Source of the DNA: Parasaccharibacter apium
GTDB lineage: Bacteria; Pseudomonadota; Alphaproteobacteria; Acetobacterales; Acetobacteraceae
Length of the DNA stretch: 64,000 bases
Direction: 5' to 3'
Assembly (NCBI RefSeq): GCF_002592045.1
Contig: NZ_MEJG01000003.1
Coordinates: 124,001-188,000, forward strand
The notes beneath the pieces are model-generated. The model was not told the DNA's origin. It did no database searches and saw only the letters and a list, made by a program, of their open reading frames with translations. Positions 41,011-45,730 of the stretch are shown here, piece by piece (the first letter of the stretch is position 1; each line of letters begins with the position of its first letter). A program made the translations under genes and the position numbers.

Positions 41011-41348
41011 GTCCGCGTAGCTCAGCAGGATAGAGCACAGGATTCCTAAGTTAATTGGGCACCGGGCTGGCAAACCATCCGGTGAATTCGCTCAAATTCG
41101 GGGAACGCTAAAGCCTCTTTAAAAATTTAAGGGGCTATGCCAATCCCGAGCCAAGCCTGCCTCATTCTTCTGGATGACGCAGGAAGGTGTAGAGACTGTA
41201 CGGGCGACACCGCGGCAGGGCCTCCCTGTGGTGAAGAGACAGTCCAGACCACGAACAGCCCCTCCTATGTTGCGGAAAGGGCCTGGCGATGAAAATCGAA
41301 GTGGTATGAATCCTGGGGTCGAGGGTTCGAATCCCCCCGCGGACACCA
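41011..41348 (+). tRNA. tRNA-Arg (anticodon CCT), interrupted by a group I intron
   Basis: Exon 1 (41011-41047) holds the acceptor 5' strand GTCCGCG, the D arm GCTC/GAGC, the anticodon stem CAGGA and loop bases TTCCT. Exon 2 (41309-41348) holds AA, the stem TCCTG, a 5-nt variable loop, the T arm with TTCGAAT, the acceptor CGCGGAC, A73 and an encoded CCA. Joined, they give 77 nt with perfect acceptor and anticodon stems; the T stem has one A-C mismatch. The anticodon CCU reads AGG. The break lies just 3' of the anticodon's last base (U36). The gene needs splicing to give tRNA. Confidence 0.93.
41048..41308 (+). ncRNA. Group I intron (IC3-like ribozyme) in tRNA-Arg(CCU)
   Basis: 261 nt with no protein gene. 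Exon 1 ends in U and the intron ends in G (41308), as group I splicing requires. P1 pairs exon CCU plus intron AA with UUGGG (41055-41059), giving a U-G pair at the 5' site. Core helices by eye: P2 41060-41084; P3 UCGCUC (41088-41093) with GGGCGA (41202-41207); P4 UCGGGG (41098-41103) with UCCCGA (41144-41149); P5 41113-41135; P6 CCUGC/GCAGG (41156-41160, 41179-41183); P7 GACUGU (41194-41199) with ACAGUC (41239-41244); P8 41208-41233. A GAAA-capped stem lies at 41287-41298. The core resembles the Azoarcus tRNA-Ile intron. Confidence 0.92.
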
Positions 41349-42034: not shown

Positions 42035-45000
42035 ATGGCCTACAGTTTCGACTCTCGATATGATGACCTACCCCCTATTGGCGTTAACCAAGCACCCGCT
42101 GGATGGACGCAGGTTCTCAGCGGCGGTAGCGATACGCGTGGGGTGAATTCCAATGTCTCAAACTATTATGTTAGCGGCAGCTCTAGCGGGGCTAATGGGG
42201 CGGTAACCAACTCTCTTGTTGCCGCTATTAACAACACATTGACTAACGGTATTGCCGTAGATGGCGGCTCCCTCGCTATTGCGGGCCTCAGAGGCGTTAT
42301 GTACGGGGCAACGGCTCTCTCCAACGCCTCTATCGAAGCTATTGGCGGTGGTGTCATTAGCGGTGGGGTTGTGGGCTCTTCTGGGGCCATCTTTGCCGGT
42401 GCCGTAACATCCTCAGTGAATAATCAATATGACGTCGGTAGTGTTAAAGGCTTTGGGACCGTCATTAATCCTATTGTTGGATCAGGAGGGTATGCGCTCG
42501 TTGGGGGCGGGGGTACAAACTTCATTGTAAAGGGGTTTTCCGTCAACGGAAGTGGCGGCGTCATGCTGGGGGGAACATTCAATCCCGGCAGTCTCTACGG
42601 GGTTGGAAATGGCGGGGTTGCAAGTGGGGGCACTATTGGTGGCCATCAATCCATTTTCTCCAACGGGACATCCATTAATCAACTCTTTGTTGGGTCAAGC
42701 GCGGTACAATCTATCCTTAGTAATAGCCTAGCATCTCAGTCCACCGTACTAAGTGGGGCAACAGGCTTAAACTCAGGCGGTACAACCAGCAAGATGGTTG
42801 CTGTTAATGGTGGTACCCTCATGGTAAATGGCGGCACCTACCTGACATGGCTTAATTCCGGGTACGTTACTTCAACCTTTAATTATGGCAATGGGACATC
42901 ATTTGATGACATCGTCTCTTCCGGCGGGACAGAGATTGTCGGTATGGATGGCTCAGCCAATCGCTCTACAATTCTCTCAGGCGGCATCAGCACCGTCTTA
43001 AGTGGTGGCTCTGCTCTTGCCCCGCTTGTCTCTGGCGGAACAGAATTAGTCAGTAATGCTGGTTTTATAAGCGGTGGGTCTGTCCTCCAACAAGGCAATA
43101 TCACCCTCTCTTCTGGGGCACTTGGCTCCAATCTTTCTGCCTTTACAAGTGGTAATATCGTCATTTCTTCTGGCGGGATGGCCACAACAATTGGGGCAGC
43201 CAGTAATGGTACCATCCAAATCGCCACTGGAGGAACAGGCTCTGCCGTTAGGATTAATAATCAAGGTACCGTTTTGCTCAATAGCGGGGGGACCGCAGGT
43301 AACCTCGTCATCAATAGTGGCGGTACTGGGACAATCGATCCTGGCGCTATCATCTATAGTGGGGCGACCCTCAATGATGGCAACCAAACCCTTGCACCTG
43401 TCTCTGGCGTAACGGCAGATTATCTTGTTGCCAGTGCGGGGACGGTTATCGCTAACCCCGGGGCGACTATATCCGCTATTTACGCCGCAGGCTCCAACGG
43501 AACAGGCTTACTTACACAAAGTGGCGTCTCCCTTGGGTCGGCTATCGCCGGATACGACCCCAATAATAGCACCGCCTTTGGTGGGACTGTCATGGTCAAT
43601 GGAGGGGCAGTAACCTCTATAGCCGGGGCGCAACGAAATGGTCAGCTCATTTTAGGCTCTGGCGGGACAGCCAGCAATTTTTCCCCCATCAGTAACGGCA
43701 CGGTTACCCTCCAAACAGGGGCTTATGTTGCAGATGGCGCCACAGCCCAACTAACGGGCGGCCTCATCTCGCTTGATTCAGGCGTCCATGTAACAAATAT
43801 TACAGCCAGCGCCCTTGGCCTTAATAGTGCTGTAGTCTCTGTTAACACTGGTGGGACAGTTGATGCCATCACCCTTGGCTCCCGCGGAACAGGGAACATC
43901 CTCTCTGGGGCTGTTGTCAGTGCACTAGGTGTTAATCGTGGGGGGTCTGTACTTCTCTCCAGCGGGGCTACTGTCCCCAATATTATGCTCAACGGAGCTA
44001 CGGTGGAGATCCCTGTCGGCGGGGCGGGGGTACAAACTCTTTCTGCTGTCAGTGGGGCGACCAGCATCATTGACTCTGGTGCTAACATTAATAGCGTGTT
44101 TTTATCTGCCGGTAACGCAACTGTTCAATCTGGTGCATTTATCAGCCGTCTTACCATCATGAGCGGCGCCTCTGGCGTGCTGATGTCCGGGGCCTCGGTT
44201 CAACATATTGATGTCAATAGCGGCGGTTGGGTAAGTGGCGCCCGTATCTCTAACAATAACGAACTTGCCGTCAGCTCCAACGGGACAGCATTAGATACAG
44301 TTGTCACTTTCGATTCCGGCAATGGGCCTTATGCACAAAACCCCTATACGATGGTCAGCTCTGGTGGTTATGTCTCCGGGGCCACCATTCTTGGTGCCGA
44401 TGGGTCTGCCGACCCTAATCAACTCGGTGGCTTGCTCACTATAGAATCCGGTGCAACGCTCATTAACACCTCTATGGGGTATAATGCCCGTATTCGCATC
44501 GCGGGGTTAAAATACTCTGATAACTGGCACACCAGCGTTGTAGGCAACACTGTCTTTGTTACAGAGGGGGGAACCAATGGGTCTGGTGCCACAACATGGC
44601 AACTCAGCCTCAAAGGCAATTACAATGCTGGCGGATTTGTCCTTAATGACGATGGGCAAGGCAATACCGTTCTTATTTATGAAAAATGTTTCCTCGCCGG
44701 GAGTATGATCCGTACCCCTACGGGCAACAAAGCTGTAGAACGGCTACGTAAAGGCGAACTGATTTGCATCTATCAAAATGGGCATGAAGAAACCCGTACA
44801 ATCACAGCTGTTATTCAGCGTCGTGCGCGTGTTAACACATCACAACCGGAAGATTTAGCCGGTTGGTCTGTTATTATAGCAAAAGACGCCTTCGGCCCTG
44901 GCCTTCCTGAGCAAGACCTCTCCGTAACACCAGAGCATTGCTTCTATTTTGACGGCCATTTCGTCCCTGCGCGAATGCTCATCAATGGGGCCTCCATCCG

Positions 45001-45730
45001 CTATGACCATAGTCAAGTAGAGTATGATTATTATCACATTAAAACGGACCCTCATTCCATTATTTGGGCAAATAATGTGCTGACAGAAAGCTGGCTTGAT
45101 ACTGACCTGCAAGACCACTATGAGGCAAATGATACGAACATCCTACATTTGGTCGAACAAGAGCAACTCAATTGGAATGAGAATGCCGCGGCTCCGCTGG
45201 GTGTTACTCAAGAGTTCGTCAAGCCATTATATGACGCATTTGTTGCCCGCGCGGCAAAGCTAGGCCTCACAAGCCCTGCGCATACGCATAAAGCCGACGC
45301 AACCACATTAGACCCTACACCCTATATCCGTTTGAAAAATGGTGCCACACTCTACCCACATCGGCATGAAGCAGGACGTTACCTCTTTACTCTCCCTGCT
45401 TATACGCAGCAGGTTACGATTGGCTCGCGCACTTTCCGTCCCTCCGAAGCTGTAGGGCCACATTTGGATGACCGACGGCAGCTCGGCATCCTCATCGGGC
45501 AAGTATCACTTTGGAATGGCGGGCGCGAGACGATCATTACACGCCACCTGACCGATAGAGGGCTAGAGGGATGGGATATCATTGAAGCAGGGCCGCATCG
45601 TTGGACTAAAGGCGAAGCGGATTTACCCCTACATGATAGCCCCCCTGTCAGCGCGACCCAGCAAATCTTAACAATTGAGGTGCAGGCTGGTGGCCCTTAT
45701 TCGCTTTCTCCTGAGGGGGAGGCTCTGTAA
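42035..45730 (+). CDS. AIDA-like repeat protein with hedgehog/intein (Hint) domain
   Basis: 1231 residues. About residues 50-860 are degenerate Gly/Ser/Thr/Asn-rich repeats of the AIDA/autotransporter passenger type (SGGT..., SSGA..., NSGG... about every 19-20 residues), predicted to form a beta-helix. A Hint_2-type domain starts at Cys885 (EKCFLAGSMIRTPTGNKAVE), has the TxxH motif T965-P-E-H968, and ends near ANNVLTESWLD. About 190 further residues of unknown type follow, with no C-terminal autotransporter barrel. No N-terminal signal peptide is visible. Self-cleavage before Cys885 is plausible from family chemistry. A surface or secreted role is inference. Confidence 0.85.
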   Translation: MAYSFDSRYDDLPPIGVNQAPAGWTQVLSGGSDTRGVNSNVSNYYVSGSSSGANGAVTNSLVAAINNTLTNGIAVDGGSLAIAGLRGVMYGATALSNASIEAIGGGVISGGVVGSSGAIFAGAVTSSVNNQYDVGSVKGFGTVINPIVGSGGYALVGGGGTNFIVKGFSVNGSGGVMLGGTFNPGSLYGVGNGGVASGGTIGGHQSIFSNGTSINQLFVGSSAVQSILSNSLASQSTVLSGATGLNSGGTTSKMVAVNGGTLMVNGGTYLTWLNSGYVTSTFNYGNGTSFDDIVSSGGTEIVGMDGSANRSTILSGGISTVLSGGSALAPLVSGGTELVSNAGFISGGSVLQQGNITLSSGALGSNLSAFTSGNIVISSGGMATTIGAASNGTIQIATGGTGSAVRINNQGTVLLNSGGTAGNLVINSGGTGTIDPGAIIYSGATLNDGNQTLAPVSGVTADYLVASAGTVIANPGATISAIYAAGSNGTGLLTQSGVSLGSAIAGYDPNNSTAFGGTVMVNGGAVTSIAGAQRNGQLILGSGGTASNFSPISNGTVTLQTGAYVADGATAQLTGGLISLDSGVHVTNITASALGLNSAVVSVNTGGTVDAITLGSRGTGNILSGAVVSALGVNRGGSVLLSSGATVPNIMLNGATVEIPVGGAGVQTLSAVSGATSIIDSGANINSVFLSAGNATVQSGAFISRLTIMSGASGVLMSGASVQHIDVNSGGWVSGARISNNNELAVSSNGTALDTVVTFDSGNGPYAQNPYTMVSSGGYVSGATILGADGSADPNQLGGLLTIESGATLINTSMGYNARIRIAGLKYSDNWHTSVVGNTVFVTEGGTNGSGATTWQLSLKGNYNAGGFVLNDDGQGNTVLIYEKCFLAGSMIRTPTGNKAVERLRKGELICIYQNGHEETRTITAVIQRRARVNTSQPEDLAGWSVIIAKDAFGPGLPEQDLSVTPEHCFYFDGHFVPARMLINGASIRYDHSQVEYDYYHIKTDPHSIIWANNVLTESWLDTDLQDHYEANDTNILHLVEQEQLNWNENAAAPLGVTQEFVKPLYDAFVARAAKLGLTSPAHTHKADATTLDPTPYIRLKNGATLYPHRHEAGRYLFTLPAYTQQVTIGSRTFRPSEAVGPHLDDRRQLGILIGQVSLWNGGRETIITRHLTDRGLEGWDIIEAGPHRWTKGEADLPLHDSPPVSATQQILTIEVQAGGPYSLSPEGEAL
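42180..44620 (+). repeat. Degenerate in-gene repeats coding AIDA-like units
   Basis: Within the Hint protein gene the DNA repeats short segments such as AGTGGTGGC/AGCGGCGG and TCTGGGGC at spacings near 57-60 bp, matching a 19-20-residue protein unit. The copies are diverged rather than exact, so this is protein-level repetition and not a satellite or CRISPR array. Confidence 0.7.

Follow-up and report, generated by a model that had tools for sequence, protein, structure and literature searches.

A tRNA-Arg(CCU) gene interrupted by a group I intron

The question raised by positions 41011–41348 of the window, the 64-kb stretch of DNA analysed here, is whether a tRNA gene lies there in two pieces, separated by a group I intron that would remove itself from the transcript, and, if so, whether that intron descended vertically or was transferred. 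Plain ARAGORN without the intron option reported zero tRNAs in the 64-kb window, as had been predicted of a standard tRNA scan, whereas the same program with introns of 100–500 nt permitted returned exactly one tRNA-Arg(CCU) gene at this locus. Its first exon (41011–41047, plus strand) ends in the anticodon CCU, the 261 nt intron occupies 41048–41308 on the same strand, and the second exon (41309–41348, plus strand) begins with AAUCC and encodes CCA at its end (41346–41348). When 41011–41047 was joined to 41309–41348, ARAGORN folded a 77-nt tRNA-Arg(CCU) with a full cloverleaf and placed the intron directly behind the third base of the anticodon, ahead of an A. The last base of exon 1 is U and that of the intron is G. 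The original prediction of a tRNA that becomes complete only upon removal of 261 nt, with a break in the anticodon loop flanked by these two letters, was confirmed.

A search of 551 bases with the Rfam group I intron model RF00028 matched 41042–41258 with 44.1 bits (E 5.1e-10), below the curated gathering cut-off of 50, which is a database threshold and not a biological feature. The genome (1.85 Mb in 13 contigs) gave no other match at E ≤ 10. Failure of this model to score had been named as a refuting outcome; the E-value is strong, and the shortfall concerns the curated cut-off. Combined, ARAGORN and RF00028 support the reading of an intron in tRNA-Arg(CCU) of an Acetobacteraceae member. We estimate at about 96% the probability that 41011–41348 is a tRNA-Arg(CCU) gene carrying a group I intron that would excise itself, self-excision being the inferred part of this reading.

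An intact second gene for the same tRNA, together with the lack of a spliced product in RNA, had been named as evidence against the intron, and such a gene was looked for genome-wide. No second tRNA-Arg(CCU) gene was found among the 47 tRNA-model hits of the genome: ARAGORN called 46 of them as tRNAs, none with CCU, and saw no tRNA in the 47th, a hit of 15.5 bits. The split gene fills a missing tRNA-Arg(CCU) annotation in this genome. The other tRNA-Arg genes identified by ARAGORN carry the anticodons UCU, ACG and CCG; tRNA-Arg(UCU) might read AGG by wobble, so that the CCU tRNA need not be essential. Scans of the locus, weak for this purpose, gave neither an upstream promoter-like site nor a terminator. 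Elsewhere in the window, 42035–45730 encodes a repetitive protein of 1231 aa that ends in a Hint_2 domain at its C terminus (Pfam PF13403, E 1.5e-29).

Predicted fold of the intron and covariation among its relatives

The structure was drawn on the window sequence, with P5, P8b and P9a adjusted to RNAalifold columns, and was evaluated on an alignment (A1) of 58 of the 62 Arg(CCU) introns in our first family set, from which duplicates, one intron containing N (L135) and one long intron (L056) were left out. All helices lie on the plus strand. P1 is formed by the exon 1 CCU (41045–41047) and the internal guide GGG (41057–41059), with a U.G pair at the 5' splice site, and beside the guide the P10 strand AUU (41054–41056) can pair with AAU of exon 2 (41309–41311). 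The P2 hairpin (41060–41084) bears the tetraloop CAAA at 41071–41074. The 5' strand of P3 (41088–41093) has its partner at 41202–41207; P4 (41098–41149, with strands 41098–41103 and 41144–41149) encloses P5 (41112–41115/41133–41136), a short stem without the P5abc extension; P6 (41150–41152/41186–41188) spans the region 41150–41188, which includes P6a (41156–41160/41179–41183). The 5' strand of P7 (41194–41199) pairs with 41239–41244, and P8 (41208–41233) pairs 41208–41211 with 41230–41233. The P9 region (41248–41305) consists of a closing helix (41248–41252/41301–41305) and of two helices named P9a and P9b in this analysis, the latter with the loop GAAA at 41291–41294. The core helices P3 to P8 with the crossing arrangement of P3 and P7 are thus present, and all drawn helices from P1 to P9, among them the originally proposed P1, P3, P4, P6, P7 and P8, pair on the window sequence and hold in the relatives.

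In A1, 95.7% of the 3860 cells pair, as compared with 82.5% in shuffled and 29–42% in slid controls, figures that lean somewhat towards the structure as it was partly drawn from these same related sequences. As the relatedness of the rows and this origin of the structure soften the controls, the two-sided changes carry the weight: they occur in 39 of the 67 pairs and in 566 cells, against 163.5 in shuffles. All five pairs of P6a, three of the four of P8 and three of the six of P3 show them, P3 being paired in 100% of its cells. P1 (CCU/GGG), P4 and P6 are invariant in A1 and hence uninformative by covariation; P1, just 3 bp long, is kept in 58/58 relatives, the U.G pair included. P7 had been described as 6 bp and perfect, which is true of the window and of about half of the relatives; five of its pairs are invariant across the 58 introns, and the sixth, which pairs in 29/58, is not conserved. 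The consensus proposed by RNAalifold itself, in which the guide region pairs with the 3' strand of P7, was rejected because the columns concerned barely vary and because it excludes P7.

The IC3 label fits the anatomy of this intron, which is small, lacks P5abc and has GAAA on P9. GNRA-type tetraloops on P2 and P9 characterize the IC3 subgroup, and a contact between L2 and P8 is usual in such introns; here the corresponding loops are GAAA in L9 and, in the window's genus, CAAA in L2. Absence of P5a-d is a property reported for IC3 introns (PMC11835236). CAAA, which is not GNRA, stands in L2 (41071–41074 in the window, A1 column 42) in 11/11 genus genomes, while 54 of the 58 A1 introns have GAAA. 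The base following the 5' strand of P8 is G or A in the genus and T in 53 of the 54 other A1 introns. This is a change confined to a single clade, in which the L2–P8 contact may have been altered or rewired. The statement on L2 is based on the 58 rows of A1 and the 11 genus rows, as an automatic reading of L2 over 116 distinct Arg(CCU) introns did not work for most rows from other genera. A continuous P8 helix was also considered as a peculiarity of the genus and was dropped, as other introns pair there too.

Proposed splicing mechanism

According to the model suggested by this fold, the intron core would form within the precursor tRNA, the 3-bp helix P1 between exon CCU and guide GGG, which puts U.G at the splice junction, would fix the 5' cut and a guanosine cofactor would attack there. 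P10, between AAU of the exon and AUU of the intron, would then align the second exon, the terminal G of the intron would mark the 3' cut, and ligation of the exons would restore a normal 7-nt anticodon loop. The middle column of the P10 triplet, or the one beside it (A1 column 23), holds U in 52 of the 58 introns and C in the other six. A homing endonuclease would not fit into the 261 nt of the intron, and mobility, if any, would need an RNA-based route or a helper.

Conservation of the split gene in the genus

The survey of the same tRNA gene in relatives, suggested at the outset, found it split in 11/11 genomes of the genus, in which the 77-nt joined tRNA matched as two halves 230–262 bases apart; no intact full-length copy of tRNA-Arg(CCU) was detected at E ≤ 0.001 in these 11 genomes. 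A reading in which intergenic DNA resembles an intron with its flanking tRNA halves by chance alone would agree with a score under the Rfam cut-off. It has to contend, however, with an E-value of 5e-10, with the complete tRNA obtained on joining, with covariation and with conservation in 11/11 genomes; the last two already refute it, and we regard its probability as practically nil.

The same data bear on the possibility that the locus is a tRNA pseudogene whose decayed intron no longer splices, AGG being read by tRNA-Arg(UCU). The presence of the latter gene in the genome, the L2 loop that departs from GNRA in the genus and the modest Rfam score would all suit such decay. Against this, the exon matches are 98–100% in 10 of the 11 genus genomes (97% and 88% in the eleventh), the pairs of the core and of the splice sites are either invariant or compensated, and the joined exons give a full tRNA, all of which makes a pseudogene most improbable.

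Distribution in the Acetobacteraceae and beyond

RF00028 at E ≤ 0.01 revealed introns in 85 of 299 family genomes. A second model, built from 48 of the family introns, matched 141/299 genomes in 54 of 102 genera, with two matches in 15 genomes, in what is an uneven contest with RF00028 as this model contains members of the family; nearly all of its matches listed exceeded 100 bits. In a sample of the class, 49 of 385 genomes matched, five of the 49 being Acetobacteraceae. Twenty of the 158 family genomes without a match were tried for an uninterrupted gene, and an intact tRNA-Arg(CCU) was found in 16 of them; of the other four, one yielded a Lys match only and three no match.

Split tRNA genes of this type are easily overlooked, since plain ARAGORN found no tRNA over the intron in 87/87 related loci tested, and since only 17 of the 299 family genomes pass the RF00028 cut-off, as compared with the 141 matched by the model made from these introns.

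Five plasmids (three from Salmonella, one from Klebsiella and one from Acinetobacter) share a segment with about 71% identity to a portion of the intron core. In the two cases inspected, 1501–1605 of L384 (Salmonella) and 1501–1604 of L385 (Acinetobacter), the segment lies where no gene is listed, and an AAC(3)-IId gene is no more than about 750 bases away; Rfam at its cut-off gave no match in either of them.

Host tRNA genes and guides of the related introns

The first family set comprised 88 loci, for 87 of which a host tRNA gene could be given (L052 had none): Arg(CCU) in 62, Leu(UAA) in 11, Thr(GGU) and Arg(UCU) in four each, Leu(CAA) in three, Asn(GUU) and Lys(UUU) in one each, and an ambiguous Leu-like tRNA in one (L120). 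ARAGORN accepted the joined exons as the assigned tRNA in all 87. An enlarged set of 154 loci, obtained by adding 66 (10 + 56) from the matches listed, had 114 introns in Arg(CCU), 22 in Leu(UAA), six in Thr(GGU), four in Arg(UCU), three in Leu(CAA) and one each in Asn and Lys, with two ambiguous Leu-like hosts and one locus without a host call; where the two host-assignment scripts were at odds, the result yielding a sound tRNA was taken. Outside the family, 49 loci were examined from 52 match rows, and the hosts were Leu(UAA) in 18, Lys(UUU or CUU) in eight plus two uncertain cases, Thr(GGU) in five (one by eye), Arg(CCU) in four and Leu(CAA) in two, with no host call in 10. The four non-family introns placed after CCU, at the same site as in the window, are L276, L277, L291 and L295, of which L291 is put in another register by the other set of assignment rules. 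Long introns of 355 and 421 nt (L372 and L381) lie in tRNA-Leu(CAA) of the alphaproteobacterial family f48.

Related introns thus occupy at least six different tRNA genes of the family, and their guides can pair with the anticodon loops of their hosts. The guide differs with the host, being GGG with CCU, GAG with CUU, GCC with GGU and GAC with GUU. The guide script searched the first 40 nt for the guide that fitted best and strayed from the conserved place in, for example, L034, L041, L042, L078, L102, L111, L088, L099, L126 and L133; it found no guide in L056 and none that was sensible in L120, and the expected guides were then read by eye. The expected letters occur near the 5' end in 86/86 classed introns (within 130 nt in L056 and within 45 in the others), a recurrence that is weak evidence because three-letter strings are common by chance. 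By the script, P10 pairs beside the guide in many introns and not in all, many Leu(UAA) introns being without it. Family introns outside Arg(CCU) with guides that fit the host include L046, L047, L087, L088, L105, L112 and L032. For the Leu(CAA) introns L094 and L125, a proper anticodon loop seems to need a 5' cut after C (C34) and not after U. In the mainly open-access literature consulted we saw no proteobacterial introns in Thr(GGU), Arg(UCU) or Asn(GUU), a weak absence, Thr and Asn being the hosts named in a few of the searches.

Descent and movement of the introns

A tree was built from the intron cores of 84 of the 88 loci. It requires eight changes of host, the minimum being seven and the shuffled mean 24.4, and the hosts form nearly separate clades; counted host by host, three are needed for Leu(CAA), three for Leu(UAA) and two for Thr. 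The Asn(GUU) intron (L032) sits on an end branch of length near 5 and may represent a separate lineage. In a tree of 59 Arg(CCU) introns, 11 changes are required for the ten genera that have at least two rows, against a minimum of nine and a shuffled mean of 32.3. The four rows of the window's genus make up one clade (support 99/91), while the genera g54, g42, g31 and g101 are not single clades and some of their rows are on long branches. In the 84-core tree the introns of the genus adjoin two from g101, one of them from the genome G158, where leuS follows the intron at a distance of about 0.9 kb, much as it does in the window, if the contig is oriented as assumed. The closest named leuS among the 80 loci listed, records very near the window being left out, was that of Saccharibacter sp. 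EH611 (82%).

The original prediction left vertical inheritance or transfer open, and the evidence leans towards the former within genus and family: vertical descent is favoured because 11/11 genus genomes have the split gene and because the intron tree largely follows the genera. Recent horizontal entry into the genus would be in line with Paquin et al. 1999, the title of which, as cited, makes a case for transposition and horizontal transmission among alpha-purple bacteria, with the many family genomes lacking an intron (141/299 have one) and with the four of ten genera that are not single clades. Yet it is hard to reconcile with a split gene in every genus genome, with a single clade adjoining the g101 introns or, subject to the assumption on orientation, with the leuS neighbourhood shared with G158, and we consider it very unlikely. 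The intron is old in the genus and, as judged from the survey of the genus and these trees, probably vertically inherited, with rare moves between tRNA genes.

For the family as a whole we suggest tentatively, with somewhat more doubt than belief, that one lineage of short introns without ORFs has switched its guide time and again, passing from one tRNA gene to another. Such moves would span Arg(CCU), Leu(UAA), Thr(GGU), Arg(UCU), Leu(CAA) and Lys(UUU), the insertion being in each case at or beside the anticodon and P1, and often P10, fitting the new host. If descent was as in the tree, the introns would have found new targets naturally, with no endonuclease involved and probably through reverse splicing. 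The interest of the locus lies mostly in this broader collection of introns hosted by other tRNA genes, which is ready material for studying how group I introns change target.

Comparison with known introns

The Azoarcus tRNA-Ile(CAU) intron, the model ribozyme of IC3, is a small anticodon-loop intron with a short P1, no P5abc and tetraloops on P2 and P9. The intron described here resembles it in being a small intron in a tRNA anticodon loop with a short P1 and no P5abc, and differs in the tRNA that it interrupts. The tRNA-Arg(CCU) introns of Agrobacterium and Bartonella are alike in tRNA, anticodon and group I structure and belong to a different host family; this likeness is by description, equality of the exact site having been judged within the genomes searched here, where for instance the intron L095 of genome G149 is placed after CCU as in the window. 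The Bartonella intron BbgpI was shown to splice, and its tRNA gene had been left unannotated because of the intron (PMC7717549). Short introns in tRNA-Arg, -Gly and -Lys of cyanobacteria are reported as group I (PMC5733544), and a sporadic distribution with transposition was described for alpha-purple bacteria (Paquin et al. 1999, as cited).

The closest precedents are from the same family and the same tRNA isotype. According to note c of Table 1 in PMC4596401, a homologue of group I introns divides one tRNA(Arg) gene in each of Asaia bogorensis, Acetobacter pasteurianus, Gluconobacter oxydans, Komagataeibacter medellinensis and Gluconacetobacter diazotrophicus; Granulibacter bethesdensis is entered in that table without the split-tRNA note. 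The window's genus does not appear in the table, and the tRNA-Arg(CCU) intron at 41048–41308 adds it as a new genus to an intron family described before in acetic acid bacteria.
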